A stretch of DNA of 35,496 nucleotides from a virus, in IMG/VR virus record IMGVR_UViG_3300020442_001101, positions 1-35,496 of that record; one strand, written 5' to 3'. Shown here piece by piece: positions 3,479 through 31,843 of the stretch. How positions within the stretch are numbered: position 1 is the stretch's first letter; every line of letters starts with the position of its first letter. A program made the translations under genes and the position numbers. The notes beneath the pieces are model-generated. The model saw only the letters and a list, made by a program, of their open reading frames with translations, did not search any database and was not told the origin of the DNA.

Positions 3479-3886
3479 CTAAGTTTTTACGTTCTTAGCC
3501 TTACCACGTCTGTCTGCATTAGGATCTTTTCTTCGCTTACGGGCGGCAGAAGTCTTTCTTTTCTTCTTGCCCATAGCATAAGCCTTAGAAGCTGGTAAAC
3601 ACTTTGGCTTTCCTTCACCTTCACTCCGTCCTCCACATGAGCCACGGACTTTACCATCAGGTCCAAAACGGACCCATTTTTGTTTAAACCATTTTTTGAG
3701 ATCTTCGTGTAAATCCATTTCCTCTGAAAACACAAGATCACCACAGTTTACACAATAATCAACATGCTCACGTTTCACACAATTAGGCACACGTTTACCA
3801 AACATGGTTTTCATGCCTTTTTTCTCGTAGCCCTTCCAGCAACGTGTTCCTTCGTCAACGATGTTAATTATATCTCTTAGATTCAA
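3479..3886 (-). CDS. Putative internal head protein with Cys/basic modules (135 aa)
   Basis: Begins with TTG at 3886 inside TTGA, overlapping the stop of the upstream gene by four bases. The N-terminus MNLRDIINIVDE resembles a T4 capsid-targeting peptide ending in a V-D-E processing site. Two modules follow that recur in marine T4-like phage proteins: CWKGYEKKGMKTMFGKR ending PNCVK (residues about 16-38), and KKWF...WVRFGPDGKVRGSCGG with KPKCLPASKAYAMG (about 64-105). A CVNCGD pair lies between them. The C-terminus is very basic (KKKRKTSAARKRRK). This is probably a packaged DNA-binding protein; no enzyme motif is seen. Confidence 0.8.
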   Translation of the reverse strand: MNLRDIINIVDEGTRCWKGYEKKGMKTMFGKRVPNCVKREHVDYCVNCGDLVFSEEMDLHEDLKKWFKQKWVRFGPDGKVRGSCGGRSEGEGKPKCLPASKAYAMGKKKRKTSAARKRRKDPNADRRGKAKNVKT

Positions 3887-4695
3887 CTCTTGTTACCCCA
3901 GTTCTTGGCACCTTTTTTACGGCACTGAACTAGAGCACCAGAGGCATAGGCGCTAGGCCAAACTTTATATCTGGCTTTTACCTTGTGATAGCAAGCATCT
4001 TTCTTTTCTGCGAGACGTTCAAACTCGTCTTCAGTGATAGGCTTACCTACTGATTCTTCTAATGTTTGGAATCTGTTATTCTTTTTTTTTAGATTTTCTG
4101 CAAGGCGATCTTTTAATTCATCTTCGTAAGTATAACTTTCGTCTTGCTTTTCTTTTTCTGCTTTATCTTTAGCATCAAGATCTTTTTCAATCTTATCGCT
4201 TTTTCCTAAGCTCTTTTTAAATTTTGCTATTGCTTTTTTGCCTGCTTCTCCAGTTCCAGGCTCAACCTTAGTTGGCTTCTTACCTGTTCTTTTCATGTAT
4301 TCAGCTGGAGTTTCTTTTTTCTGTTCGTCGACCTTTTTATCCTTTTTAGCTTCCTTGTCTTTTACAGCTTTTTTCATTGGTTCTTTTTTATTGCCATCAC
4401 CGTCGATATCAATGTAGTCTGGTTTAGCTTTTTTTCCTTCAGCTACTTCGTCAAACTTCATTTCATAATCCATGTTATGGTATACTGCACCAATATAATC
4501 AGATGCTTTAGTAATTTTAGATTGAACCCAACCTTCAAGGCCTTGTTCTTCTGTACGGCCTTTTAGCATCTCATGCAATTTGATTGCGTATTTTGCAATC
4601 TTGTATAGGTCAGCTCTTGCCATTTGTACTTCATGGTCAGCTTCTGCTTTGAAAGCCAATGTTGCTAAATCTTCTTTAAGGTCTTTTTCTCTCAT
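3883..4695 (-). CDS. Lys-rich modular phage protein with C-terminal YHKVKARYKVWPSAYASGAL module
   Basis: A 270-residue protein in three parts. Residues about 24-85 form a helical domain (ARADLYKIAKYAIKLHEML, then EGWVQSKITKASDYIGAVYH) widespread in marine T4-like phages. The middle is a long Lys/Glu-rich low-complexity region that includes DIDGDGNKKEP, an EF-hand/dockerin-like acidic loop. The C-terminus is a compact Cys module (CYHKVKARYKVWPSAYASGA, then LVQCRKK and NWGNKS). The N-terminus MREKDLKEDL is a poorer match to a capsid-targeting peptide than its neighbours. The ATG at 4695 has GAGGA upstream and a GATAAATA late box. It is probably a head-internal or structural protein; the biochemical role is unknown. 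Confidence 0.8.
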   Translation of the reverse strand: MREKDLKEDLATLAFKAEADHEVQMARADLYKIAKYAIKLHEMLKGRTEEQGLEGWVQSKITKASDYIGAVYHNMDYEMKFDEVAEGKKAKPDYIDIDGDGNKKEPMKKAVKDKEAKKDKKVDEQKKETPAEYMKRTGKKPTKVEPGTGEAGKKAIAKFKKSLGKSDKIEKDLDAKDKAEKEKQDESYTYEDELKDRLAENLKKKNNRFQTLEESVGKPITEDEFERLAEKKDACYHKVKARYKVWPSAYASGALVQCRKKGAKNWGNKS

Positions 4696-4712
4696 TTTAT
4701 CTTCCTCGTAAG

Positions 4713-4720
4713 TATTTATC
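4713..4720 (-). promoter_or_regulatory. T4-late-like promoter (GATAAATA)
   Basis: Octamer GATAAATA on the minus strand, 17 bases before the ATG at 4695 with GAGGAAG between. It overlaps the TAA stop of the gene at 4716-4937. Confidence 0.6.
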
Positions 4721-4937
4721 TCTTAACGGGTTTGCCACTCATAATATTGTTACTAATATCGAGGGCGTTTTTAGTAGTTCCATCTGGATTTTTCTTTTGT
4801 GGTGCTTGCGGTGCACCATATTTACCACGTTTTTTTGGTTTGTGATATGCGGCTGGCGGGCTTGCCACAGTTGCAATACTTCCTGCACTTGTGGAACCTG
4901 CTGTCGCTATCTCATTTATTAATTCTCTTATCAGCAT
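4716..4937 (-). CDS. Small putative internal head protein (73 aa)
   Basis: The N-terminus MLIRELINE is a close match to a T4 capsid-targeting peptide with I-N-E as the presumed gp21-type cut. The mature part would start IATAGSTSAGSIATVASPP, a small-residue stretch seen in several marine T4-like proteins, then a basic, Pro-rich tail (KPKKRGKYGAPQAPQKK). No enzyme motif is present. No clear Shine-Dalgarno precedes the ATG at 4937; instead a GGTAAATA late box ends five bases before it, so the late transcript may be almost leaderless. It is part of the head-protein island. Confidence 0.75.
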   Translation of the reverse strand: MLIRELINEIATAGSTSAGSIATVASPPAAYHKPKKRGKYGAPQAPQKKNPDGTTKNALDISNNIMSGKPVKR

Positions 4938-4941
4938 AATA

Positions 4942-6606
4942 CTATTTACCTTTCTTTTTACGGCCGCCCTTCATATTTGCACACCAGTGATACATCTTTG
5001 CACGTTCTCCAGATGCGTTTTTAGCCTTCTTACGTAGTTCAGTAACACTTCCTCCGCAACTTGCACCTGCTTTTTTGACTCTTCCTGGTCTGCTTTTTCC
5101 TTTTACTTTTCCATCCGCAAAGTTTTCAAGTAATCCTAATACTTCATCTTTTGTGTAAAGTCCGCTTTTCATAGCTTCAATAGCCATCTTTGTAGCTGTG
5201 ACATACATAAGTGATTCGAATTGCAGTCTTCTACGATCTAAACCAATCCTTAACACATATGAACCTTCTATATTCTCATCAAAATGTGAATCTTTATATC
5301 CGTCTGCATCTTGAACTGAATAACCTATACGTTTAAGGTTTTTCATCATATATTTCTTTTCTTTTTCTCCACCGTAAAACTGTATGAATATATCAGGCTT
5401 ATTTTTCTTTTGCACATCTGGTGGCATATCTTTTATGTTTGCCATATGTGTGCCTATTTTATACCAGTCATAAGCATCATCTCTTTTCACCAAAACAGAT
5501 CTTTGTGGATTTGCTAACAAGTTTCCTTCGTTAGCTGATTCTCTACCTGGAGCATCTATCTTCTTACCTTCTTTACGCTTTCTCATGTTTGTAGCGATTG
5601 CGTAAATTGCTCCTTCAGGATCCATGCCTCTTTCTTTTGCCCATTTGCCAATTGACTTTTTAGCTTTAGGTTTGTCCTTTATCTTGTCTGCTGTTTTATG
5701 AATCTTTTTTATTGAAGCTTTGCTCATATCTGCTTCTTTTGTATCCTGATCCATGTATTGTTTAAGGTTTTGTACAGTTCTTTCAAACTTGTGATCTTTG
5801 TGTTTAAAGCCAACACCGCCAGCGGCTTCCCATTTTGCTATGTTTTTACCAAAGTCATCTATTAATATGTTTGGAGTTCCATCTGGTTGTGTGGCATGCA
5901 CCGCCTTGTTGGAAGTTATTATAACATTGCTTGGAGGGAAAGACGATAAATTCTTTTTAATCCATTCTCTTTTATGTGGTTCAGAATTAGGATCATTTGG
6001 TAAAGGAGCACTTAATATATTGTACTTGCCTTTCAGCTGTTTGATTAAACTTAAGAGATTATTTGCATTTGATGTAACTGGAATGTTTAACCAAAAATCA
6101 TCCTTGTCTCTAATCTTTTGTAAAGCATCATCTAAGTCAGTAATTTCACGCCAATCCTTACCTACAAGTTTTTTCCAAGCACCAAAAAAGTCTGCAAGCA
6201 CACCATCCATGTCCACATATATTTCTGATTCCTTGCTTAGATCTTTAGCTGAAACTTCAATTATGCCTTCTTCTTTCTTTTTAGTTTCTGGATCATCATG
6301 ACTATAACCTGCCTTGTTTAATCTATCATGATGTTTCTTTTTAGTAGGAAATTTTGCTTTATAATCTTTTTTGGTTCCCTTGTACATCATGTGAGGTTTA
6401 TATTCTTCTTCTGCCATACCAAGGTTAAACAGAACATTTGTCTTAGACCCTTTTGTTTTCTTTGAATGCTCTTTGGGTTTGCCCTTGCCAAGTCCTAGTT
6501 TCTTAACGTTGGCATATTCACCGCCAACCGGAACATCCTTGGTAGCATTTTGTTTTGTAACAATTCCAACGCCAGCCGCTTCTTCTTTGAAATCACGAAA
6601 CTTCAT
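4942..6606 (-). CDS. Putative packaged HAD-family 5'(3')-deoxyribonucleotidase with Cys/Lys modules (554 aa)
   Basis: Modular protein. Residues 1-9 (MKFRDFKEE) resemble a capsid-targeting peptide. A basic linker follows to about residue 125. Residues about 128-270 are a HAD hydrolase of the 5'(3')-deoxyribonucleotidase type: motif I YVDMDGVLADF (D132, D134), motif II NILSAPL, a motif III lysine in HKREWIKKNL, and motif IV NILIDDFGKNI. All four motifs look intact, so it may dephosphorylate dNMPs. Then come the IGKWAKERGMDPEGAIYAIA module (about 318-340) and a C-terminal Cys/basic module (RPGRVKKAGASCGGSV ... KMYHWCANMKGGRKKK). The ATG overlaps the upstream stop (ATGA). It is inferred to be delivered into the host with the genome. 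Confidence 0.8.
   Translation of the reverse strand: MKFRDFKEEAAGVGIVTKQNATKDVPVGGEYANVKKLGLGKGKPKEHSKKTKGSKTNVLFNLGMAEEEYKPHMMYKGTKKDYKAKFPTKKKHHDRLNKAGYSHDDPETKKKEEGIIEVSAKDLSKESEIYVDMDGVLADFFGAWKKLVGKDWREITDLDDALQKIRDKDDFWLNIPVTSNANNLLSLIKQLKGKYNILSAPLPNDPNSEPHKREWIKKNLSSFPPSNVIITSNKAVHATQPDGTPNILIDDFGKNIAKWEAAGGVGFKHKDHKFERTVQNLKQYMDQDTKEADMSKASIKKIHKTADKIKDKPKAKKSIGKWAKERGMDPEGAIYAIATNMRKRKEGKKIDAPGRESANEGNLLANPQRSVLVKRDDAYDWYKIGTHMANIKDMPPDVQKKNKPDIFIQFYGGEKEKKYMMKNLKRIGYSVQDADGYKDSHFDENIEGSYVLRIGLDRRRLQFESLMYVTATKMAIEAMKSGLYTKDEVLGLLENFADGKVKGKSRPGRVKKAGASCGGSVTELRKKAKNASGERAKMYHWCANMKGGRKKKGK
4943..4950 (-). promoter_or_regulatory. T4-late-like promoter (GGTAAATA), very close to ATG
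   Basis: Minus-strand GGTAAATA ending five bases before the ATG at 4937. By the T4 late-promoter geometry, transcription would start at or next to the start codon. It overlaps the 3' end of the 4942-6606 gene. Confidence 0.4.
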
Positions 6607-6815
6607 TTTTTACGGCTCCTAAATTGTATAGGTCCATTAAGGTAAGGTTTTGAAAACCATATCTTAAACCAATCAGCATCACCTGGCTTAATTCCTAAAC
6701 GTTTTTCTTTGTCCTTTAATGCTTGTGCAGTATCACTTATGTTCTCTAAGCTCACAGGCTTGTAACCTGTAAATTCGTTTATCCCGGCAAGTTTTTTAAG
6801 AGTGTTTATATCCAT
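6603..6815 (-). CDS. Small putative internal head protein (70 aa)
   Basis: The N-terminus MDINTLKKLAGINE ends in I-N-E, a plausible gp21-type processing site after a short amphipathic leader. The C-terminal half, KPGDADWFKIWFSKPYLNG, is a motif that recurs in marine T4-like phage proteins (recalled pattern: 'G..EWF..WFS.PYL.G'). No catalytic motif is present. It overlaps the upstream nucleotidyltransferase gene by one base (TAATG) and the downstream HAD gene by four (ATGA), so the three are translationally coupled and probably made together for head assembly. Confidence 0.75.
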   Translation of the reverse strand: MDINTLKKLAGINEFTGYKPVSLENISDTAQALKDKEKRLGIKPGDADWFKIWFSKPYLNGPIQFRSRKK

Positions 6816-7708
6816 TAGTCAGCTCTTCTAATTTGATATTTTATTCCAAATCTGTCAAACAATTTTCCTGCCGTAGCAATATTTGTAAGAGCTTGTTTTA
6901 TTTGCGGAAGATATTCGTCATTTGCTTCTACCTTCTGCATAAATGCCTTAGCTTGATCTGGTTTAATAAACATTAACTTACCAGACCATGCGGCTCCTTT
7001 TCTATAAAAACTTAAAAAGTGTTCTCTGCCATCTGTTCTAGAAGACACCCAATCTAGCACTTTTAATTTATTAGGATCTTGTGCTTTGATAGAAGCATTA
7101 TCAACTTTGGATTTAAAAACATTTAATTCATTGACATCTTCTTCTGTAATGCCCATTCCTTGTCTTACTTTTGTGTACATCATTTTTGCAAGTTTTGGAT
7201 CTTTGACAGCAACACCACTTTCAAAAGAATCAAAATCTCCTTCAGTGGCCGCGGCTCTCATTTTTGAAGCACTCATGCCTTCTGCACCATCTGCATCAGG
7301 ATCACGTTCTCCAGCACTTACAACATCAATGCTATCAAATTGATAATCTTTTCCATTGTAATCGTTCAATAATTTTGTAAAGCTAGATACTCTATCGCTA
7401 CCTGCAACATATACTATATTTTTAAATCCAAGCTGTTGTAACTTTTGCATTGCTTGTATTATTGTTCTAACCTCGTTGTCACCTATACGGATTCCATCGC
7501 CAAAACTTTTTGTTGCAAAGAAAACTTTTTCAGCAAACGTTAAGGGATCTGTTTTAGGTTTTTGTGAATGTGTCAAAAATAGAAAAGGACTACCGTCTAT
7601 GCTCTTAACTTTATCCGCAAGTTTTTTATGTCCTATTGTAGGAGGGTTCATTCTCCCAAAGGCAAAAACTGCTGTACTAGGAGATTCTATCAGCTGACGC
7701 AGGCGCAT
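6815..7708 (-). CDS. HxGH-superfamily nucleotidyltransferase with putative capsid-targeting leader (297 aa)
   Basis: A nucleotidyltransferase of the NMN adenylyl-/cytidylyltransferase superfamily. The N-terminal strand-loop reads FAFGRMNPPTIGHKKL, with the (H/T)xGH nucleotide-binding motif as TIGH at 24-27. The second signature (ISxTxxR type) is MSASKMR at 145-151, after VAGSDRV. Both are intact, so catalysis is likely. The acceptor could be NMN, FMN or a phospho-sugar/alcohol. Residues 195-297 form an unrecognised second domain. Uniquely, the protein starts MRLRQLIE, a good capsid-targeting leader with L-I-E cleavage, giving a mature end at SPSTAVFAFG. A strong AGGAGG Shine-Dalgarno lies six bases before the ATG. 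Confidence 0.82.
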   Translation of the reverse strand: MRLRQLIESPSTAVFAFGRMNPPTIGHKKLADKVKSIDGSPFLFLTHSQKPKTDPLTFAEKVFFATKSFGDGIRIGDNEVRTIIQAMQKLQQLGFKNIVYVAGSDRVSSFTKLLNDYNGKDYQFDSIDVVSAGERDPDADGAEGMSASKMRAAATEGDFDSFESGVAVKDPKLAKMMYTKVRQGMGITEEDVNELNVFKSKVDNASIKAQDPNKLKVLDWVSSRTDGREHFLSFYRKGAAWSGKLMFIKPDQAKAFMQKVEANDEYLPQIKQALTNIATAGKLFDRFGIKYQIRRAD

Positions 7709-8024
7709 CTAGGTCCTCCTTAGGGTTTCTTTCAAAATCTAAAACTTTCGATGCAAGTTCTTGTCTATCTTCTGGTGGCATTAATTCATCTGGAGACATT
7801 GGAATATCGTATTTAAGACAGTAATGATTAATACATCTATCAACCATAGGCTTTAAATGTCCTTGTATAACTTGTTCATTGCGTTCACTGCGTATCTTAC
7901 TCATGCAAGGCAAATAAAACTTTCTATAAAACCCATCATCATTAAGCATATGAAAATGTATGTCATTAGGTACATCAAATGGCATTTCATCTTGAGGCAT
8001 TCTATGGAATTCTGATATCTTCAT
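7677..8024 (-). CDS. Conserved island protein of unknown function (115 aa)
   Basis: An in-frame ATG at 8096 exists, but it lies deep in the upstream gene. The ATG at 8024, one base after that gene's TAA, is preferred and gives an N-terminus MKISEFHRMPQDEMPFDVPN. This resembles the leaders of its neighbours (M-K-I-x-E-F) but lacks a clear [LI]xE cut. The body is charged and helical with a few Cys (PCMSKI, DRCINHYC) and an acidic C-terminus. No family is recognised. It overlaps the nucleotidyltransferase start by 32 bases, so the two are coupled. It is probably a partner or another head-internal protein. Confidence 0.7.
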   Translation of the reverse strand: MKISEFHRMPQDEMPFDVPNDIHFHMLNDDGFYRKFYLPCMSKIRSERNEQVIQGHLKPMVDRCINHYCLKYDIPMSPDELMPPEDRQELASKVLDFERNPKEDLDAPASADRIS

Positions 8025-8025
8025 T

Positions 8026-8403
8026 TTACCACTTTCTGCATGACCAATATCTTGCCTTAGTTCTTGGTCCTGGATTATCACAGTTATGTCTTGCACGGAA
8101 TGATCTTCTACGTGCTGGATTAGATTTCTTAATTTTCATATTAGGATCACCAAAGTTCACTTTTTTAATATTCTTTGTTTTAGGATCTCTTACGTAAACT
8201 TTGAACTTTTTGACATCACCTTGCATTGGTTTGCCAAGTTTTACTTTGCGTCCTTGATATTCTGCTTCGTCTAATGATTCATCATCTTCATTAAACCACA
8301 TATCTCCGTATGCATGGTAAAAATCATCACCATCATATGTTTCTTCCATCCAAATATTTTGTTCTTCTGTCTCGGCCAAATATTGTTTAAAAGTCTTAGT
8401 CAT
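8026..8403 (-). CDS. Putative internal head protein with RARHNC...YWSC module (125 aa)
   Basis: Starts MTKTFKQYLAE, the closest match in the window to the T4 internal protein III leader (MKTYQEFIAE), with L-A-E as the presumed gp21 cut. A very acidic middle (residues about 12-48) follows. The basic C-terminal module shows KKFKVYVRDPKTKNIKKVNF, then GDPNMKIKK, RARHNCDNPGP and YWSCRKW, a conserved marine-phage module. The switch from acidic to basic halves suits scaffold and DNA contacts. AGGGG precedes the ATG and a GATAAATA late box lies 33 bases upstream. It is the first gene of the island operon. Confidence 0.8.
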   Translation of the reverse strand: MTKTFKQYLAETEEQNIWMEETYDGDDFYHAYGDMWFNEDDESLDEAEYQGRKVKLGKPMQGDVKKFKVYVRDPKTKNIKKVNFGDPNMKIKKSNPARRRSFRARHNCDNPGPRTKARYWSCRKW

Positions 8404-8435
8404 ATTCGTAACCCCTATTATAATGCATTATAAAG

Positions 8436-8443
8436 TATTTATC
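8436..8443 (-). promoter_or_regulatory. T4-late-like promoter of the head-protein island (GATAAATA)
   Basis: Minus-strand GATAAATA in the divergent gap between the island and speD. It is followed by a roughly 26-base leader containing AGGGG before the ATG at 8403. It probably drives the overlapping genes down to about 4942. Confidence 0.6.
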
Positions 8444-8473
8444 AGAATAAGTAAAGTAGTAATACATCTAAGA

Positions 8474-8481
8474 ACTAAATA
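8474..8481 (+). promoter_or_regulatory. Possible late-type promoter of speD (ACTAAATA)
   Basis: Plus-strand ACTAAATA 20 bases before the speD ATG, with AAAAGGA between. The spacing resembles other late boxes here, but the match is one of the weaker ones. Confidence 0.35.
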
Positions 8482-8501
8482 GAAACCAAAAGGATTCGGC
8501 T

Positions 8502-8864
8502 ATGCTGAAACACAAACACCTAATAGTACGAGCAGACGTTAATAATCCACCTAAAGACGAGAATGCCATAGTCGAATGGGCCAGGAAACTAATCAATGAC
8601 ATTGGAATGAAGATCATGATGGGACCATATGCAAAATATTGTGAAATGGAAGGCAATAGGGGATTAACCTGCGTCACTATAATAGAAACCAGTCATATTG
8701 CCATACATGCTTGGGACGAAGTTAATCCTGGTCTAGTACAGCTTGACGTTTATACTTGCGGTGAATTAAAGAAACAATTGGTTTTTGATGCTATAAAAGA
8801 ATTTGATCCGATTAAGATTGATTTCAAGTATCTTGATAGAGAAAAAGATTTAACTACTTTATAA
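8502..8864 (+). CDS. speD: S-adenosylmethionine decarboxylase proenzyme homologue
   Basis: The AdoMet decarboxylase family makes the aminopropyl donor for spermidine and self-cleaves to form a pyruvoyl cofactor. The 120-residue length fits the small bacterial class. The processing region reads ETSHIAIHAWDE, where S64 would become the pyruvoyl group, H69 assists processing, and C86 in LDVYTCG is the expected proton donor. The residue before the serine is Thr (T63) rather than the Glu usual in this class, so cleavage should be tested. AAAAGGA lies seven bases before the ATG. It is one of only two plus-strand genes, and its end overlaps the minus-strand gene at 8854 by 11 bases. Confidence 0.82.
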   Translation: MLKHKHLIVRADVNNPPKDENAIVEWARKLINDIGMKIMMGPYAKYCEMEGNRGLTCVTIIETSHIAIHAWDEVNPGLVQLDVYTCGELKKQLVFDAIKEFDPIKIDFKYLDREKDLTTL

Positions 8865-10227
8865 ATCTGAAAGCAAATTTACCACCAATTCTTGAACTAT
8901 AATAGTTTTTACTTCCGTCTAATGCAACTGTTCCTTGGAAGTTTGGCGGATATACTGCGTCATATTTGCTTACAAATATGTCATTACCTTTTTTGCCTAC
9001 TCTTGTGTACAATTGAATGATACTCGCAGTGTTAAGAAGTCTAATTGCTTCTGTTGAAAAGTTTGGATTTTTATTTACTTCAATAGCTACCTTTTTTGCT
9101 ACCGCACTGGTCAATGCATAACCTGCATTGAATCCTTGCACATTAGTATCGAAGTTTACGCCTGTTATTATTTTTTGTGCTTCTTCACTTAATCCTTCAA
9201 ATGTACGTGCGCCTGCTGATATAAGTTTCTTTGTTTCCGTTCTTAATGCTGGTGTTGTGATTTCAAATCTTTCACCTAAAGAAAACGGTGCATCTTTTGC
9301 TGTTTCGTTGTTTATGATTTCAATAATAGGTTTAATGAATTGAACACTTTGCATTAACTTTTTATCATCTTTATTTTTGATTAGAGAATCATATAAGTTC
9401 TTTGCACTTGCGGCCGCACCTGCTCCGCCCTTTGAACTGATCAATATTTTCTTACCATCAGGTGCAACAAATACACTATCAGCTAAATTGTAGTTCATTG
9501 ACTGTGGCCAAAATATTTCTAAATCATTCCAGTTTGCGCCACCTGCCAAATCTTTTCTTGCTTGTTCTGCTGGTCCTAGTACTGCTCCGCCCATCATTGC
9601 TACCGGACCCATTATTTCTCCAAAGTAATCTCTGATTGCTTCCAACCTTTCAACTTGTCCTGGAAACTGTGCTAACTGTCCTGCGGCACTTGCTCTCAAA
9701 GCATCACCTAAAATCTTTTTGTCGTCTTGTGGTGCTTTGTTTTCCACATGTCTAATTACGCTATCAGAACCTCTAAAAAAGTTTTTTGTAGCAATTAGTG
9801 TTTGTGGATCTAATCCGGTTTGTAATTTTGTAGCACCCTTTGTTTTCAATTTCCAGCCATCTGGTATTGCATTGTTAGGCCATATACCTAACAAGTCATG
9901 AGCGTTTTGTTGTAGATATCTACCCCAATAAATTTTTTGTCCATCTGATGTTTGAATAACAGCGATACCAAATGCTAACATTCTTGCAGTTGGTTTATTG
10001 GTCCATGAAATTTCGTTTGGTTTAAGTCCGTTATTTGTTTCGAAGTTTTTTATTGCTTCGTCTCTTGCTTCTGGTGTTTCAAATTTTCCTCCATCTGTCA
10101 TTGGTGGATATGCTTCAACTCCGACAAATTCTGCCTGCACTCCGCCACGCTCGAATGGATCCCCTTGTTTTCTACCAAATACTCCTTTGGCCTCGAACAG
10201 AGGTTTTTTAATTTGATAAAAACGCAT
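8854..10227 (-). CDS. Large putative packaged protein, possible nuclease-like core (457 aa)
   Basis: No family is recognised with confidence. The N-terminus MRFYQIKKPLFEAKGVFG resembles a capsid-targeting leader with L-F-E as the cut. The central region (residues about 235-285) reads NYNLADSVFVAPDGKKILIS followed by SKGGAGAAASAKNLYDSL. A strand ending in S-S-K after an Asp-containing strand resembles the (D/E/S)xK half of a PD-(D/E)xK nuclease site, but this is only suggestive. The rest is helical and neutral. Its ATG overlaps the stop of the upstream 88-residue gene (TAATG). It may be another head-packed protein of the island, separated from it by speD. Confidence 0.75.
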   Translation of the reverse strand: MRFYQIKKPLFEAKGVFGRKQGDPFERGGVQAEFVGVEAYPPMTDGGKFETPEARDEAIKNFETNNGLKPNEISWTNKPTARMLAFGIAVIQTSDGQKIYWGRYLQQNAHDLLGIWPNNAIPDGWKLKTKGATKLQTGLDPQTLIATKNFFRGSDSVIRHVENKAPQDDKKILGDALRASAAGQLAQFPGQVERLEAIRDYFGEIMGPVAMMGGAVLGPAEQARKDLAGGANWNDLEIFWPQSMNYNLADSVFVAPDGKKILISSKGGAGAAASAKNLYDSLIKNKDDKKLMQSVQFIKPIIEIINNETAKDAPFSLGERFEITTPALRTETKKLISAGARTFEGLSEEAQKIITGVNFDTNVQGFNAGYALTSAVAKKVAIEVNKNPNFSTEAIRLLNTASIIQLYTRVGKKGNDIFVSKYDAVYPPNFQGTVALDGSKNYYSSRIGGKFAFRFIK

Positions 10228-10493
10228 TAAACACTAACCTCAATGTCAAAGTCGTTGTAACCTAGATCAAAAAGTTTGTTTGCTATTTTATTTGCTACAT
10301 CGTCTGACTCTTGTTCATCTAGTTGTACATGCGTTTCAACTGTAAGAACTGTTTTACCATCTTCTGTATCATAAAGCTCGTAGCCTGTTTCTTCTTCTAA
10401 TAAGGCATTTGATGCTGATGTTGCTACTTCGGAGACGACTATGTCATCCACTTCTTGTTTTGAGTCAAAAACGATATTGATAAAATTTTCCAT
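10227..10493 (-). CDS. Small acidic phage protein (88 aa)
   Basis: Not recognised. A strongly acidic alpha/beta-looking protein with a regular pattern (YELYDTEDGKTVLTVETHVQ, then ANKIANKLFDLGYNDFDIEV) like a small ferredoxin-type or ACT-type fold. It has no Cys, membrane segment or leader. AGGGA precedes the ATG, and its stop overlaps the start of the 457-residue gene (TAATG), so the two are coupled and it could be a partner or inhibitor of that protein. The pairing is inference. Confidence 0.65.
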   Translation of the reverse strand: MENFINIVFDSKQEVDDIVVSEVATSASNALLEEETGYELYDTEDGKTVLTVETHVQLDEQESDDVANKIANKLFDLGYNDFDIEVSV

Positions 10494-10502
10494 AGAACTT
10501 CC

Positions 10503-10844
10503 CTAATGATTCATTCTGATACTATTAATAGTACCGTCTGTGTACACAACTTTTGCTCTAATAAAAACAAAGTTTCCTGTGAAGTTTGCATATTTAATTG
10601 CAGTTTCTTGTGACGCTGTGTATGTGTGTACATCGAACCAATCAGTATCACCTGGACTGGTTGCTAATGTTGCTTGTATTGTAATGGTTCCTGTTAATCC
10701 AGTAAAATCATAAGAAACAGTATGAACACCGTCTGAATGACCATAGTAACCATCACCTCTAAAGTTGCTTCCGGTGATAGTTTCTGTTGTGCTATCTCCT
10801 GGATGCGTATTTGCTGATAAAATTATTTCACTACTACTTGGCAT
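10503..10844 (-). CDS. Beta-rich virion-type protein (113 aa)
   Basis: Thr/Ser/Gly-rich sequence with alternating hydrophobics (TGTITIQATLATSPGDTDWF, then FTGNFVFIRAKV and INSIRMNH at the end) that looks like a small beta-sandwich. Similar short proteins occur among virion structural proteins of marine T4-like phages. It has no signal peptide. The ATG has no Shine-Dalgarno. An AATAAATA box ends five bases upstream, partly made by the stop codon of the previous gene, so late, near-leaderless transcription is possible. It is probably a capsid- or fibre-associated decoration protein, but no specific family is claimed. Confidence 0.65.
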   Translation of the reverse strand: MPSSSEIILSANTHPGDSTTETITGSNFRGDGYYGHSDGVHTVSYDFTGLTGTITIQATLATSPGDTDWFDVHTYTASQETAIKYANFTGNFVFIRAKVVYTDGTINSIRMNH

Positions 10845-10848
10845 ACTA

Positions 10849-11532
10849 TTATTTATTCAAATCTGCTTCACTAACATACTTGACAATTTTTGAAATAGAA
10901 CCGCCTATTGCAATTTTAGCAAGCATTAAATAACGTTCATTCTTTGTAAAGAAGTAAAATCCTTCTGTGTAATGTCCAAGTTTTATTGCTTGCTTGGCCT
11001 TGCTTCCAATACGTATTGCATGTGAATTCGCTTCACAATAGTTAACAAAATTAGGATCGACTCTCTTTGTAAAGAACGCTTTGTATGGCCATTCAACATC
11101 ACCTTTGACTATTTGAGTATTTTTATTTTCAAGTAAAAAGTTAAGGTTATCGTCATTAGCAGGTTCATGGAATTCTAATGCACCTATTTTATCAGCAAGT
11201 TCTTCTAACCAAATATTTTCATTAGAATATATATCTAGTTTGTGTCCTTCTATCCTAACCATACAGTTATCTTTATTACGTTCTAACGCTTTATAGATTA
11301 CGCAATTATCCATAAAGGTTTCTAAAGTTATGTGTTTAGGATCTCCTCGCCAAGCTCTAAATGGACTCTTTATAGCCAAGTCGGCTTCTGCATCCATTTG
11401 CATTTCGTCAAGTTTAGTCTTGGCCCAGCCAAGATTCATTCCTCTATATATAGGAGCAATGGGATTTTGTAACCTAAGTTTAAAAACGTATTTGTTGTAA
11501 AACAGTTTAGTTGTTAGTAATCTCTGCAACAT
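10849..11532 (-). CDS. Conserved phage protein of unknown function (227 aa)
   Basis: Not recognised. A mixed alpha/beta protein with a basic, hydrophobic N-terminus (RLLTTKLFYNKYVFKLRL) that is not a clear membrane anchor. The middle reads DNCVIYKALERNKDNCMVRI, and the C-terminus YLMLAKIAIGGSISKIVKYV. It starts 26 bases inside the 3' end of clpA in another frame, with AAAAGG seven bases before the ATG, so it is made from the clpA transcript and may act with ClpA, for example as an adaptor. That link rests only on the overlap. Confidence 0.7.
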   Translation of the reverse strand: MLQRLLTTKLFYNKYVFKLRLQNPIAPIYRGMNLGWAKTKLDEMQMDAEADLAIKSPFRAWRGDPKHITLETFMDNCVIYKALERNKDNCMVRIEGHKLDIYSNENIWLEELADKIGALEFHEPANDDNLNFLLENKNTQIVKGDVEWPYKAFFTKRVDPNFVNYCEANSHAIRIGSKAKQAIKLGHYTEGFYFFTKNERYLMLAKIAIGGSISKIVKYVSEADLNK

Positions 11533-13765
11533 TTTCTACCTTTTGTTTAGTAGGTTTTAAGATAAGTTCGTTTTTCTTTACATCAATTTGTAAAGAACCG
11601 CCATTTCTTAGATCACCGAAAAGTAGAAGTTTACTTAGAGGACGTTTGATATGTTTGTCTATATATCTTTGCATAGGTCTTGCACCCATTTTGCTATCAA
11701 AACCGTTGTCAACTAAATGATCAAGTGCGTCATCTGTTATTTCACACACAACGTTTTTATCATCAAGCATTGTTCTAAGCTCTAACAAAAACTTACCAAC
11801 AATTTTTAACATAATTGGTTTGTCAAGTTTACCGAACGTAACAACGCCATCTAATCTATTTCTAAATTCAGGTGCAAAGAAACGTCTAAATTCTTCATCA
11901 CCATAATCGCCATCTACATCATGGCTGAAACCAATAGCATTTCTTTCTGCTTGTTCCGCACCAAGGTTTGTAGTAAGGATCAAGATGCAGTTTCTTGCAT
12001 CTGCTTCTTTACCGTCACTTCCAGTAATTTTTCCATTGTCCATAATTTGCAATAAAATCTGCGAAATATCAGGATGTGCTTTTTCTATTTCATCTAATAG
12101 CAATACACAGTTAGGATGTTCTTGTAGCTTGTTAATTAGTTGTCCTGAATGCTCATCATGTCCAACATAACCTGGAGGAGAACCAATCAACTTTGATACA
12201 CTGTGTTTTTCTTGATACTCACTCATATCAAATCGTGCAAGATGAATACTTAGATGTTTTGCAAGTTGTTTAGCAAGTTCTGTTTTACCAACACCAGTTG
12301 GACCCATAAACACAAAAGCACCAATCGGTTTATCTTCAGTTTTCAAGCCAGCTTGTGCAACAAGTATTTTGTCTACAATTTCATCAATAGCATTATCTTG
12401 CCCATACACATTTGCCTTTAGATTTTTGTTCAGTTTGTTAAGGTTATTTGTCTCCTTTTGTTGTATTTGTTCCGGAGGCAAATTAACAAATTTTGCAAGC
12501 TCAAACTTTATCTCGTCTGGAGTTACAATTTTGTTTTCTTCTTGATTGTTTACTTTAAATCTACTACAAGCAAGATCAATTAAGTCAATAGCTTTATCAG
12601 GAAGTTTTTTATCTGTGATATATTTTACACTTAATTTGACTGCTTCATCGATAGCTTCTTCAGTAATTGTTGTTTTATGAAATTCTTCATAATACTTTTT
12701 TATACCAATAAGAATATCTTTAGTTGTTTTCTTATCTGGCTCATCAATACTTACACGTTGGAATCTACGCATTAACGCACGATCCTTTTCAAAGTATTTT
12801 CTATATTCTTCCCAAGTTGTTGATGCAACTACTTTGATATCTCCCTTACCAAGAGCAGGTTTCAACATATTAGCTAGATCGTTTGAACTATTACCACCTC
12901 CTGTGCCAGCACCATTCATCATGTGTGCTTCGTCAATGAACACAATAGTTTTGCCTTGTTTCTTTATAGCTGATAACACCAGCTTGAATCTTTCTTCAAA
13001 GTCTCCTCTATATTTAGAACCTGCCAACATAGCACCAATGTCTAAATTGTATACACTATATTCTTCTAAAAATTTAGGGACTGCTTTATTAACAATTCTA
13101 TATGCAAGTCCTTCAGCAATAGCAGTTTTACCAACGCCCGGTTCACCAACTAACAATACATTGTTTTTACTTCTTCTACCGAGACTTAGACAAATGCTTT
13201 CTAACTCATCTTGTCTACCAATTACTGGATCAATTTTTCCGCTCTCAACTTCAATATTAAGATTGGTAGTAAAAGCCTTTAATGCTCTTTGTGCATGTCC
13301 TGCTAATTCTTCATCTTCTAAATTAGCAACATATTCTGTGTTTACATACTCATTAAATTTATTCTTTTCAATTCCTGAACTTGTAGCCAAATAACAAGCG
13401 AAAGATTTTTGTTCATTTAACAAGGATAAAAACACATCCGTTACATCAATGTGTGCTCTACCACTAAACAGCACTTGAGTAAAAGCACGGTTCATTACTC
13501 GTTCTACTGTTTGCGTTTTTTTAGGTTTAAACTTTGTTCCTTCTGCTACTTTAATCTCATCAAACTTTGTTTGTAAATGATTTAAAAGTTCGTCTTTCAT
13601 TGGCTTTGGATCGATACCAAAACCGTCTAAAACATTCATAAAATTTTCGCTACAAAGCATAGCAAAAAATAAATGCTCCAACGTAATATATTCGTGGTTC
13701 AGCTTTTTTGCATCTTTGATAGCTTTTTCGAATACTACCTGTAATTCATCAGATGGTTCTACCAT
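11507..13765 (-). CDS. clpA: ClpA-type AAA+ unfoldase (752 aa)
   Basis: Full-length Clp/Hsp100 ATPase of the ClpA type: an N-domain (residues 1-150), D1 with Walker A GEPGVGKT (207-214) and Walker B VFIDEAH, and D2 with GPTGVGKT (488-495) and LLLDEIEKAH. There is no ClpB/ClpC middle domain. An IGF tripeptide (611-613, in AERNAIGFSHD) sits where ClpA/ClpX carry the [IL]GF/L loop that docks on ClpP. The phage protein could therefore use the host ClpP. Arginine-finger segments (LMRRFQ, FRNRLD) are intact. A sigma70-like promoter lies upstream and GAGGAG precedes the ATG. It is probably early, and would redirect host proteolysis. Confidence 0.93.
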   Translation of the reverse strand: MVEPSDELQVVFEKAIKDAKKLNHEYITLEHLFFAMLCSENFMNVLDGFGIDPKPMKDELLNHLQTKFDEIKVAEGTKFKPKKTQTVERVMNRAFTQVLFSGRAHIDVTDVFLSLLNEQKSFACYLATSSGIEKNKFNEYVNTEYVANLEDEELAGHAQRALKAFTTNLNIEVESGKIDPVIGRQDELESICLSLGRRSKNNVLLVGEPGVGKTAIAEGLAYRIVNKAVPKFLEEYSVYNLDIGAMLAGSKYRGDFEERFKLVLSAIKKQGKTIVFIDEAHMMNGAGTGGGNSSNDLANMLKPALGKGDIKVVASTTWEEYRKYFEKDRALMRRFQRVSIDEPDKKTTKDILIGIKKYYEEFHKTTITEEAIDEAVKLSVKYITDKKLPDKAIDLIDLACSRFKVNNQEENKIVTPDEIKFELAKFVNLPPEQIQQKETNNLNKLNKNLKANVYGQDNAIDEIVDKILVAQAGLKTEDKPIGAFVFMGPTGVGKTELAKQLAKHLSIHLARFDMSEYQEKHSVSKLIGSPPGYVGHDEHSGQLINKLQEHPNCVLLLDEIEKAHPDISQILLQIMDNGKITGSDGKEADARNCILILTTNLGAEQAERNAIGFSHDVDGDYGDEEFRRFFAPEFRNRLDGVVTFGKLDKPIMLKIVGKFLLELRTMLDDKNVVCEITDDALDHLVDNGFDSKMGARPMQRYIDKHIKRPLSKLLLFGDLRNGGSLQIDVKKNELILKPTKQKVENVAEITNN

Positions 13766-13827: not shown

Positions 13828-14676
13828 TTAAATCTTACTTTTTATTTGTTCAATTGCATTTAGGTCATCGCCGCCTAAATTGCGTGGTGTTTCGCCTATT
13901 ATCCTAACAAGTATGTTTCCGTTTCTTCCTGTCTTTCTGTTTGGTAAGCCTCTTTGTGCAATACTAAAAACGGTGTTAGGTTGTGTGCCTTTTGGAATGT
14001 TTAGACTAACTGTTTTACCATCCGGAATAAGAACATCTATTCTAGCTCCTGTTATCAAATGAAGTGTGCTAATTCTACGCACCGTGTGTAAGTCGTTACC
14101 ATGCACTTCATATTCAGATCCGTTTTGAATCTGTATCATAACATACAAATCACCTGCAGGAAGATTTGGATTGTCTTTTTGCCCCATGCCTGTATATCTA
14201 ATTTTATCGCCTTGATTTATGCCTACTGGTACTTTTATGTCTACAGTTTGTTCTAATCCGTTGTTAAGCCTATATGTTGCAATGACATTTTTACCAGTAT
14301 ATACTTCTGCAATCGATATTCTACATCCGATTGTGATATCTTGGTTTTGCATTTGTCTTTGCCCGAATCCTCCAAAACCAAATTGCCCCATTAAATCATT
14401 AATGTTGATGCCGCCTTGAAACCCATCAGAAGTAAAATGAAAGTTTTGGAATCCTTGCGGACCTGCTTTTTGCGGATCAGCAGTGCCATAAGTGTCATAC
14501 ATTTGGCGTTTTTCTTTATTGCTTAAAACTTGGTATGCTTCGTTTATTTCTTTGAATTTAGCATCGTCACCGCCTGTTCTATCAGGATGATGTTGCATAC
14601 TTTTCTTTTTGTATGCAGACTTTAAATCCTTTTCCGAAGCTGACTTGGGAACACCGAGTATTTCATAGTAGTCCAT
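13828..14676 (-). CDS. dnaJ: DnaJ/CbpA-like J-domain cochaperone (282 aa)
   Basis: Residues 1-65 are a J-domain (DYYEILGVPKSASEKDLKSA) with the essential HPD at 30-32, which stimulates DnaK. A Gly/Phe-rich linker follows (GGININDLMGQFGFGGFG), then two substrate-binding beta domains with the CbpA/DnaJ C-terminal pattern (VPVGINQGDKIRYTGMG; HLITGARIDVLIPDGKTVSL; GLPNRKTGRNGNILVRI). No CxxCxGxG zinc repeats are present, so it is a type II (CbpA-like) J-protein. It should work with host DnaK in head/tail assembly or replication. A CCTAAATA late-type box lies just before the ATG and no Shine-Dalgarno is seen. It stands beside clpA, making a proteostasis pair. Confidence 0.9.
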   Translation of the reverse strand: MDYYEILGVPKSASEKDLKSAYKKKSMQHHPDRTGGDDAKFKEINEAYQVLSNKEKRQMYDTYGTADPQKAGPQGFQNFHFTSDGFQGGININDLMGQFGFGGFGQRQMQNQDITIGCRISIAEVYTGKNVIATYRLNNGLEQTVDIKVPVGINQGDKIRYTGMGQKDNPNLPAGDLYVMIQIQNGSEYEVHGNDLHTVRRISTLHLITGARIDVLIPDGKTVSLNIPKGTQPNTVFSIAQRGLPNRKTGRNGNILVRIIGETPRNLGGDDLNAIEQIKSKI

Positions 14677-21288: not shown

Positions 21289-21630
21289 TTAATCTCCCTT
21301 GCCTGGCTTTTCAGAAAAGTATTCCATTTTGTTTTCTTTATCTGCCCATTCTTCAGCATCTGCTGGCACATCTTCGGGACGTTTTTGTGATATGTTAGGC
21401 CATTCATTTGACCATTTGAAATTCAAATCATACCATTTATTATCTGTATCGTTGAAATCCTGTATAATTGCATCTACTGGACATTCAGGTTCGCATACTC
21501 CACAGTCAATACATTCATCTGGATTTATCACAAGCATGTTTTCACCTTCATAAAAACAGTCTACAGGACATACTTCGACACAATCCATGTGTTTACATTT
21601 AACACATTTGTCATTGACTAGGTATGTCAT
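21289..21630 (-). CDS. fdxA: 7Fe ferredoxin, [3Fe-4S][4Fe-4S] (113 aa)
   Basis: Bacterial FdxA-type ferredoxin. The cysteines match the Azotobacter FdI scheme: C9, C17 and C50 for the 3Fe-4S cluster and C21 (CP), C40, C43 and C46 for the 4Fe-4S cluster, within [17 protein letters not shown] and [19 protein letters not shown]. The 60-residue C-terminal extension with [13 protein letters not shown] is also typical of alpha- and gammaproteobacterial FdxA, which suggests acquisition from such a host. This differs from the plant-type petF ferredoxins of cyanophages. It could feed electrons to a host or phage reductase. The start overlaps the upstream stop of neither neighbour by more than four bases, as expected in this operon. 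Confidence 0.92.
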
Positions 21631-22037
21631 AAATCTCCTTTTTCACGCATTTCAGCACGAATATTAGTAGCACTAATACTATGTATCTCTTTACCTAAAT
21701 CGTGTTCAGTAAATGTGTATCCTACACCACGCCCATAACTTATGTCTACAATGTTAGGAACTTTCATCACAATGTATTCTTCATTCATCTTGTATCCATG
21801 TTCTTCTAAAGCATTACGAATGCTTACTACAACTTTTGTAAAATCAAAAGGATTGTCGTTTTGTACTAAAGTCCTACCTCCTCCAGCATCTTCACCTATA
21901 ATGCCACCAACATCACGCACCATAATTATGACCTGTCCAGTTTCAGCTAAAGCCCGTTTAAAAAGTTCAGTATGCCCGTCATGCCATGGTTGCCATCGAC
22001 CAAGCATTTGTGTTGTAGGTTTTTTCCAATCAAACAT
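21627..22037 (-). CDS. HxGH nucleotidyltransferase (cytidylyl/adenylyltransferase superfamily, 136 aa)
   Basis: A small nucleotidyltransferase: [20 protein letters not shown] carries HxGH as HDGH (19-22), and ISATNIR (121-127) is the second signature that binds the nucleotide triphosphate. The middle is family-typical ([24 protein letters not shown]). The acceptor is unknown; NMN, glycerol-3-phosphate-type alcohols or sugar phosphates are options. It overlaps the preceding kinase gene by eight bases, so a kinase-then-nucleotidyl-transfer pathway is likely. It differs from the packaged transferase at 6815-7708 by lacking the leader and C-terminal domain. Confidence 0.85.
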
Positions 22038-22455
22038 TATTTCTCTCCATCCAAGTTTGTACTACTTGAAGTAATTGTGCATGAGTGTCTTCAAACCATT
22101 TACTTACATGATAATCACAGGAAGGTGGTTGTTCAAACATTTTATTTGTATCTTCAAACCTTCCTTCTTCTATTGTGTTCATCCACACTGTAAAGTCAGG
22201 AGCAAATTCTTGTCTTGCTCTTTCTGTAGGACAAACAAAATCTGCTATGGCAACTTTTCCTGCCATAACAACGCCATCTGCAAGATGTCTCATTCTTTGT
22301 GCTTGCCTCAAACGTCCTTCAGGACTGAAGTCCCAGTCTTTGTAACGTTCTCTTACTGCGTCTGCATTTATGTGTACGCCGTTAATTAATTCTGCAAAAG
22401 GTTTTGCTAATGTGGTTTTGCCACTGCCTGGCAAACCAAATATTAGTATCTTCAT
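22030..22455 (-). CDS. P-loop kinase resembling adenylylsulfate kinase (141 aa)
   Basis: A small nucleoside/APS-kinase-like enzyme. Walker A is GLPGSGKT (7-14), followed by NADAVRERYKDWDFSPEGRL, matching the 'DGD.VR......FS...R' region of CysC APS kinases, then MAGKVAIADFVCPTERARQE in place of the CysC 'VSFISP...R' motif. It is shorter than typical APS kinases (about 200 residues) and lacks the far C-terminus. The overlap with the nucleotidyltransferase gene suggests the two handle successive steps (phosphorylate, then nucleotidylate). The substrate is unknown. The ATG overlaps the gp44 stop (ATGA). Confidence 0.8.
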   Translation of the reverse strand: MKILIFGLPGSGKTTLAKPFAELINGVHINADAVRERYKDWDFSPEGRLRQAQRMRHLADGVVMAGKVAIADFVCPTERARQEFAPDFTVWMNTIEEGRFEDTNKMFEQPPSCDYHVSKWFEDTHAQLLQVVQTWMERNNV

Positions 22456-23369
22456 TTCATTCTCGCTAATCTAATCATTGTTGCCGCCAAATTTATTTCT
22501 GGATCAGCAACCAATGTATGATCTACAAGTCCTTGTTTAATGATTAAGATAGCACTTTCTTGTTTTTCTTCATCACCAAACAGTTCTATATTATCATACA
22601 ACCATTTGTAAACATCTTCCATTTCGTCTGGACGAGCTTGACTACAAACAAGTTTTCTTGCTTTTGAAATTTGTCCTGCTTTGAATAGTTCTGTCATTTC
22701 AAGTTTCCAGTCACTTTCACCAGCATCGCTTTTTTCTGGCGGAAGTAATGATCCACTTACACTATTCATTTGCACCATGTTAATACATTTACGTAAATCA
22801 GGATACGTTGCCTTTACGTATGTATCTAGTGTATCAATGTCTGGCGTAACTTCTTCAGCAATAAGTATTTCAGCAACACGAGCTGTAAACTCTGTTTGAT
22901 CTATGCGTTCGATATGAAAACCTTGGCATCTACTATGTAGTGCTGGAATAATTCTGTTGGGATAATTACAAGTCAAAATAAATCTGCTTGTAGTGTGATA
23001 CTCCTCCATTACACCACGCAACGCCGCCTGTGCGTTAGGTGACAAATAATCTGCCTCATCTAGTAATACAACTTTAAATGCTCCGAACGGAATCATTTGT
23101 ACAAAGTTTACAATCTTGTCACGAACGTCTTCAACTGAGTTTGTGCGACTTGCATTAATTTCTAATACATCAAGATCGTTAACTTCTAATTGATTAAGCA
23201 GTATCTTTGCAAGTGTTGTTTTACCAATACCTGCGTTACCTGAAAATAGTAAGTGTGGAATAGTACCATCTTTTATCCATTGTTGTACTTGTTGTTTTTG
23301 ATGTTCATCTCTAAATACATATCCATCAACTGTATTAGGACGATATTTTTCTACCCATAATTCTTTCAT
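22452..23369 (-). CDS. 44: Sliding-clamp loader ATPase subunit (gp44)
   Basis: T4 gp44-like clamp loader, an RFC-family AAA+ protein that opens the gp45 ring for the polymerase. Numbered from the ATG at 23369 (305 residues): Walker A SGNAGIGKTT (43-52), Walker B VLLDEAD (101-107), the sensor/SRC motif in HSRCQGF (arginine finger, about 146), and the family start ELWVEKYRP. A GTG at 23381 is also in frame but lies within the AGGAGG ribosome-binding site, so the ATG is preferred. The partner subunit gp62 is not evident in this window. The start overlaps the upstream stop (ATGA). Confidence 0.95.
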   Translation of the reverse strand: MKELWVEKYRPNTVDGYVFRDEHQKQQVQQWIKDGTIPHLLFSGNAGIGKTTLAKILLNQLEVNDLDVLEINASRTNSVEDVRDKIVNFVQMIPFGAFKVVLLDEADYLSPNAQAALRGVMEEYHTTSRFILTCNYPNRIIPALHSRCQGFHIERIDQTEFTARVAEILIAEEVTPDIDTLDTYVKATYPDLRKCINMVQMNSVSGSLLPPEKSDAGESDWKLEMTELFKAGQISKARKLVCSQARPDEMEDVYKWLYDNIELFGDEEKQESAILIIKQGLVDHTLVADPEINLAATMIRLARMK

Positions 23370-31835: not shown

Positions 31836-31843
31836 TATTTACC
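31836..31843 (-). promoter_or_regulatory. Late-type promoter (GGTAAATA)
   Basis: Minus-strand GGTAAATA 18 bases before the ATG at 31817, overlapping the last codons of the protease gene and followed by AAGGA. Confidence 0.5.

Follow-up and report, generated by a model that had tools for sequence, protein, structure and literature searches.

The window analysed here is a 35.5 kb virus-record fragment (IMG/VR record IMGVR_UViG_3300020442_001101, positions 1 to 35,496), and this report concerns an island of genes at 3479-10227 in which most products start with short leaders resembling those that target the internal proteins of phage T4 to the capsid. The window is syntenic with marine T4-type myovirus contigs, with 36-37 of its 47 genes in G001, G002 and G004, and window homologues are present in Kyanoviridae, for example in the OM43 phage Melnitz (MZ577097); a megablast search of the window against the phage genome collection returned no matches. 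The closest relative found is G024, which has a syntenic island, several proteins 63-93% identical to those of the window and the leaders MHLRQLFE/A, MRIRELITE/Y and MREKDLKE/D (a slash marks the predicted junction between leader and body). The genes of the island are as follows, with the isoelectric point (pI) of the mature, leader-less product where a leader is predicted.

3479-3886, minus strand: predicted cargo gene A, a basic Cys/Lys/Arg-rich protein with a GTRCWKGY domain and a K/R-rich tail; mature pI 10.1
3883-4695, minus strand: predicted cargo gene B, Lys-rich, 270 residues, with a C-terminal Cys domain; mature pI 9.1
4716-4937, minus strand: predicted cargo gene C, 73 residues; leader MLIRELINE/ (4911-4937), then the cassette IATAGSTSAGSIAT, then a basic tail; mature pI 10.4
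4942-6606, minus strand: predicted cargo gene D, 554 residues; leader MKFRDFKE(E)/ (6580-6606); basic C-terminal Cys domain; mature pI 9.7
6603-6815, minus strand: 70-residue protein starting MDINTLKKLAGINE; leader status undecided
6815-7708, minus strand: predicted cargo gene E, a cytidylyltransferase/NMNAT-like enzyme; leader MRLRQLIE/ (7685-7708); motif GRMNPPTIGH intact
7677-8024, minus strand: 115-residue acidic protein starting MKISEFHRMPQDE; amphipathic start, pI 5.1
8026-8403, minus strand: predicted cargo gene F, a 125-residue basic protein; leader MTKTFKQYLAE/ (8371-8403) with an exact IPIII-type core
8502-8864, plus strand: speD, between genes F and G
8854-10227, minus strand: predicted cargo gene G, 457 residues; leader MRFYQIKKPLFE/ (10192-10227); family without a solved relative

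The seven N-termini that the first-pass annotation had listed as leaders are all encoded where it placed them, on the minus strand of the window, and comparison with relatives upholds six of them. The exception is MDINTLKKLAGINE, the status of which is left undecided because its Glu (Glu14) is not conserved in about half of the homologues while the LKRLAGI core is conserved. The sequence LKKLAGINE/FATAG and related sequences stand before the ATAG cassette in the polyproteins of some relatives, and the 6603-6815 protein may therefore be related to an inter-domain linker. A candidate leader absent from the earlier list is MREKDLKE/ of gene B (4672-4695), with homologue forms MREKDLKE, MKHDELKE and MNKKQLKE and the LKE retained in most homologues. 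The leader of gene A, MNLRDIINIVDE/, is encoded by 3851-3886, and its TTG start overlaps the upstream TGA. The homologues of the acidic MKISEFHRMPQDE protein have variable N-termini without a fixed hydrophobic-x-Glu (phi-x-E) ending, and this protein is probably not a cleaved cargo.

Leader-like starts are concentrated in the island. When the opening 14 residues are considered, the loose motif [LIVMF]xE is found for 8 of the 10 island genes and for 7 of the 37 other window genes (Fisher p=0.0006, or p=0.004 counting only the seven leaders listed originally), and a stricter leader pattern occurs in 5 of 10 compared with 2 of 37. Over six genomes the stricter pattern is present in 23 of 72 genes of the syntenic islands and 53 of 1136 genes elsewhere (odds ratio 9.6, p=3e-12), counts that are approximate because gene starts in the metagenome contigs were predicted with a home-made program; in shuffled N-termini its frequency is 2.3%. 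The mature products are basic in seven of seven cases (pI 9.1-10.4), compared with 6 of 40 other window proteins having a pI of 9 or more (p=3e-5). A position weight matrix trained on cytidylyltransferase-family leaders alone is too narrow for leaders of the MKTF/MKKF type, and its best matches outside that family in G001 and G002 are mostly other island genes. The positive controls among T4 proteins are gp24 (MAKINELLRE) and IPI (MKTFKEF...TITE).

The arrangement of the leaders in five unrelated families shows sequences that vary up to a constant [LIVMF]-x-E placed where the conserved body begins, with Glu at P1, a hydrophobic residue at P3 and both P2 and P4-P6 free. In the cytidylyltransferase family the Glu directly precedes the body in every leader-bearing homologue recovered (22 distinct variants, including MLLRELFE/A, MRLRHVFE/A, MLITEILE/A and MKKFSEIIE/A of Melnitz), and leaderless members that start at the enzyme core are found in G006 (MSKTVFAFGR), P-HM1, the E. 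coli jumbo phage SHEFM2K and the Pseudomonas phage PAC2. Gene G-family leaders span 8-14 residues (MRFYQFKE/, MRAKEFIIE/, MRFFEFKQTQVIE/ and MFLKELLFENDLTE/) and have phi-x-E before the conserved body in 11 of 11 distinct leaders, E12 being an invariant column in an alignment of 17 sequences. For gene A a Glu stands before GTRCWKGY in 16 of 17 distinct N-terminal leaders (for example MKVNEILE/GTRCW and MKLRQIIDIVDE/GTRCW), with a hydrophobic P3 in 16, and for gene D all eight distinct leaders in relatives close with phi-x-E before GVG(L/R)IV, as in MRWHEISE/GVG and MKLRQLYE/GVG. The leader of gene F is the nearest in form to that of T4 IPIII, and its homologues have MTKTFKQYLAE and MSKTFKDYLKE/. 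The same type of leader is thus common to non-homologous bodies and missing from some homologues, that is, it is modular. The specificity of T4 gp21 is L/I-x-E, and residues 4 and 7 of the IPIII leader govern targeting and residues 8 and 10 processing (PMC9026906); the P1/P3 pattern of the island leaders, as read from sequence, fits both. For IPIII, Asp in place of Glu at P1 is reported to allow packaging and to leave the protein uncut.

The junction also occurs inside long proteins and in the major capsid protein. The gene C-type cassette (E/xATAG[AS]TSAG) has Glu at P1 in 54 of 54 distinct contexts and a hydrophobic P3 in 46, and these contexts include gp23 of G001 and G002 (RKWLNE/TATAGSTSAGNVATLNRVILPVIRR), where the cassette aligns to the region of the T4 gp23 cleavage site FLTE65/A66. 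In five further relatives the gp23 junctions are HLNE/NATAG, YLAE/AATAG, YLSE/QATAG, HLQE/SATAG and HLSE/AATAG. The gene C cassette is thus also the gp23 propeptide junction of the relatives; gp23 is the gp21 substrate known best, and its junction is used again in the island. Eleven distinct gene G relatives are embedded in proteins of 1.1-1.8 thousand residues, each with phi-x-E directly before the body (for example KSILAE/AKGLMGR and VRSLIE/SKGIMGR), one with an amidoligase-like domain upstream, and internal GTRCWKGY domains are preceded by Glu in 12 of 12 cases. Polyproteins of this size, with an amidoligase-like domain and an internal phi-x-E before a gene G-like body, are seen at the loci L165:275-5353, L172 and L178. 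The simplest reading is that the long proteins would be cargo polyproteins cut at several points by the prohead protease. That protease, gp21 (PF03420, Peptidase S77), is found in Melnitz, G001, G002, G006, G016, G018, G024, G025 and G026; a scan for a gp21-type protease finds none in the 35 kb window, and the closest syntenic relatives, G001, G002 and G024, encode one.

Two island proteins have intact enzyme domains, in line with the proposal that some of the cargo is enzymatic. Gene E matches PHROG 3041 with E=4e-56 (family PHROG 3041/395) and has the HxGH-type nucleotidyltransferase motif, its match to Pfam PF01467 being under the cut-off, and residues 129-265 of gene D form an NT5C/HAD nucleotidase domain of the 5'(3')-deoxyribonucleotidase family (Pfam PF06941, E=6e-7; 29.9 bits against a cut-off of 24.8) with the DxDG motif in YVDMDGVLADF. 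A second small nucleotidyltransferase-like protein in the window (21627-22037), neighboured by a P-loop kinase-like gene (22030-22455), is leaderless and a natural contrast to gene E. The gene A product is PHROG_727-like and belongs to a family without known function, and the C-terminal domain of gene F is phrog_7595, which also ends the Melnitz cytidylyltransferase protein. Cys-containing Lys/Arg-rich C-terminal domains (those of the genes at 3479, 3883, 4942 and 8026) are shuffled among different proteins in relatives, and MYHWCANMK terminates gene D in the window and the cytidylyltransferase in G001. Gene G has no relatives in Pfam, PHROG or the PDB and no PDB fold matches at E<=0.001; its AlphaFold model has a mean pLDDT (predicted local distance difference test) of 82.7 with residues 1-19 unordered, and its structural relatives are phage proteins only, including S-PM2 T4-GC 841. 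A PD-(D/E)xK nuclease was suspected for gene G from an SSKGG motif and nothing confirmed it.

Virion proteomics by others places cytidylyltransferase homologues, and leader-bearing analogues of the other proteins, in mature particles. The S-SM1 cytidylyltransferase (T4-GC190), which starts with the leader MKKFSAFLNE/A, was detected by mass spectrometry in purified virions (PMC3037559), as was an NMNAT-like protein (ORF91) in virions of S-SCSM1 (PMC9602691). In S-CREM2 virions a S-adenosylmethionine (SAM) hydrolase, an APH-like kinase, a Cas9-like nuclease and a cytidylyltransferase were detected by mass spectrometry, and the authors suggest that the virion may bring proteins of this sort into the host (PMC10665884). 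The S-CREM2 genome (OR473000) gives their starts as MKDFDSFLEE for the SAM hydrolase, MKRFDAFLTE for the kinase, M...LRFASFMAE/AA for the nuclease and MKNFSSFLTE/A for the cytidylyltransferase (ORF154), the leader being exactly IPIII-type in the kinase, the SAM lyase and the cytidylyltransferase. Among readable open reading frames of S-CREM2 the exact IPIII-type core is present in 5 of 15 non-structural proteins detected by mass spectrometry compared with 3 of 128 undetected ones (p=0.0003). No description of a leader or cleavage mechanism for the cyanophage virion cytidylyltransferase/NMNAT and S-CREM2 proteins was found in the literature searched. Leaders are also present in Melnitz on a RimK-like ATP-grasp protein (MTQKFSQFITE/E), an AAA_33/zeta-toxin-like P-loop protein (MKTFAELQE/G) and a DUF6267 protein (MINFSKYITE/D), which may therefore be head cargo. 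The genes concerned are:

L399:3837-5081, 7704-10313, 10310-10546 and 10579-12846, and L400:4302-5015 and 21609-22469: leader-bearing S-CREM2 proteins detected in virions (SAM lyase, Cas9-like nuclease, kinase, cytidylyltransferase and two small proteins)
L001:82-1131, L002:15855-16523 and L001:13281-14528 (MZ577097): Melnitz leader genes (RimK-like, AAA_33/zeta-toxin-like and DUF6267)

Late expression of the island is suggested by elements on its coding strand. An ATAAATA upstream of a start has the shape expected for T4-type late promoters, and all nine minus-strand ATAAATA sequences in the window sit 5-32 nt upstream of a start codon, where the chance expectation is about 4% each. Two stand before island genes:

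4713-4719, minus strand: ATAAATA (in GATAAATAC), resembling a late promoter, upstream of gene B
8436-8442, minus strand: ATAAATA (in GATAAATAC), resembling a late promoter, upstream of gene F

Elsewhere in the window, ClpA/ClpB-like (11507-13765) and DnaJ-like (13828-14676) chaperone genes adjoin the island, likewise in the syntenic relatives G001, G002 and G004, and a subtilisin-like serine protease with a GTSMASP motif lies amid tail-fibre-like genes at 31839-33428.

The island is very probably a set of T4-type capsid-targeted, gp21-processed head cargo of a marine myovirus. Packaging and cleavage are well supported, if indirectly, since phi-x-E is invariant at the junction, the gp23 junction is reused, relatives encode gp21 and homologues occur in virions, and the capsid loading and gp21-type cutting first proposed for seven proteins are upheld in kind for six of them; injection into the host is likely and, like host function, is argued from analogy. 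At least six and probably seven basic proteins, presumably expressed late, would each start with a capsid-targeting leader of 8-12 residues, whose two hydrophobic residues, three apart, would serve for docking on the prohead core and whose terminal phi-x-E would be cut by the gp21-type prohead protease as the head matures, as modelled on T4 IPIII. The mature proteins (the NMNAT/cytidylyltransferase, the NT5C-type nucleotidase and the basic Cys modules) would stay with the DNA in the head, together with which they most likely pass into the host, acting before phage gene expression. In relatives these bodies are rearranged within long polypeptides, with phi-x-E retained internally, so that cutting there would free several cargo proteins per chain. 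The NMNAT-like enzyme could restore NAD (nicotinamide adenine dinucleotide), the NT5C-like nucleotidase could act on deoxynucleotides, and a possible role of the small basic modules with Cys is to bind DNA in the head.

Several points weigh against this assignment. The distinct leaders counted above are not phylogenetically independent, the start of the 7677-8024 protein is leader-like and has no cut site, and the listed leader MDINTLKKLAGINE is not conserved. The window fragment stops short of the head cluster and carries neither gp21 nor gp23, and the protease is therefore inferred from relatives. The virion detections concern homologues in other phages rather than the virion of the window phage, and the cyanophage detections could include carry-over, according to the authors themselves (PMC10665884, PMC9602691).

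Of the alternatives, the one that survives best, though unlikely, is that the island encodes prohead core or scaffold components (gp67/gp68/gp22-like) that are cut by gp21 and serve head assembly rather than delivery, their fragments staying in the head or leaving before infection. T4 core proteins have similar short phi-x-E starts (gp67 MEGLIE, gp22 MLKEQLIAE), several island proteins are low-complexity and Lys-rich, and gene C has a copy of the gp23 junction in its cassette; against this, two island proteins have intact enzyme domains, the island of the relatives lies far from the gp20-gp23 head cluster with a variable and shuffled gene content, and homologues persist in mature virions. Considerably less probable is a set of uncleaved neck-, tail- or fibre-associated structural proteins sharing an N-terminal amphipathic helix that binds another structural protein, a reading suited to the leader-like starts without a conserved phi-x-E (7677-8024 and the MRFNELKK forms) and contradicted by a Glu fixed at the junction in five unrelated families, internally and in gp23, by the freedom of P2 and P4-P6 and by the unordered start of the gene G model. 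Chance or translation-start bias, with amphipathic LxE N-termini being common and hand-picked, is scarcely credible, for although the loose pattern is also found in 7 of 37 genes outside the island, the enrichment is significant in the window and over six genomes and the comparative data already contradict it in a junction conserved in relatives. The junction data are the basis for rejecting both of these last two explanations.

The nearest known counterparts of the predicted cargo are the T4 internal proteins IPI, IPII and IPIII with their capsid-targeting sequence. Both have a short leader with hydrophobic residues three apart and L/I-x-E at its end, mature proteins that are basic, bodies that are not homologous and have only the leader in common, and a gp21 encoded by the phage group. 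Differences are apparent in that the island bodies, some of them enzymes, are unrelated to those of IPI-III, form a larger and clustered set and are found again within polyproteins, and in that most of the leaders have 8-12 residues, often as M-x-phi-x-x-phi-x-E. T4 Alt, an injected ADP-ribosyltransferase that loses a 7-residue propeptide cut by gp21 (PMC9026906), is likewise a leader-bearing enzyme packaged in the head; the island enzymes are instead NMNAT-like and NT5C-like, and an ADP-ribosyltransferase was not found. Both Alt and IPI-III act on entry (PMC9026906; PMC12373910), and all three T4 internal proteins inhibit type IV restriction enzymes (PMC12373910). The T4 vertex protein gp24 has a leader (MAKINELLRE/ST) very close to MKVNEILE/, MKINEITE/ and similar forms, although gp24 is a shell protein and the island bodies are not. 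S-SM1 T4-GC190, S-SCSM1 ORF91 and S-CREM2 ORF154 are homologous cytidylyltransferase/NMNAT proteins, with the leader seen in the two copies examined, those of S-SM1 and S-CREM2; the authors of the virion studies put forward host entry for them. The ejection proteins of the giant phages phiKZ and SPN3US are also large head-packaged sets cut after Glu by a gp21-related protease, with a different motif (S/A-x-E) and other protein families (PMC9026906).

A wider proposal, offered tentatively and held with less confidence than the assignment of the island itself, is that marine T4-type phages share a code readable from sequence, in which any body that follows a leader, or a gp23-like phi-x-E cassette within a polyprotein, would be loaded into the prohead, excised by gp21 and delivered, with enzymes (NMNAT, nucleotidase, SAM lyase, kinase, amidoligase and ATP-grasp) shuffled through the slot as preloaded agents of host takeover or counter-defence. 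A SAM lyase carried in the virion would be an immediate anti-restriction agent. This type of tag is known from T4, and no earlier description appears to exist of marine phages using it widely on enzymes and on long proteins that are cut up. If the assignment is correct, many hypothetical proteins of abundant marine phages would become predicted head cargo with predicted mature ends, which are checkable in existing virion mass spectrometry data, and a mechanism would be at hand for the enzymes that have been detected time and again in cyanophage virions without an explanation. The idea of the T4 internal protein would then extend to enzymes and to polyproteins released by the protease.

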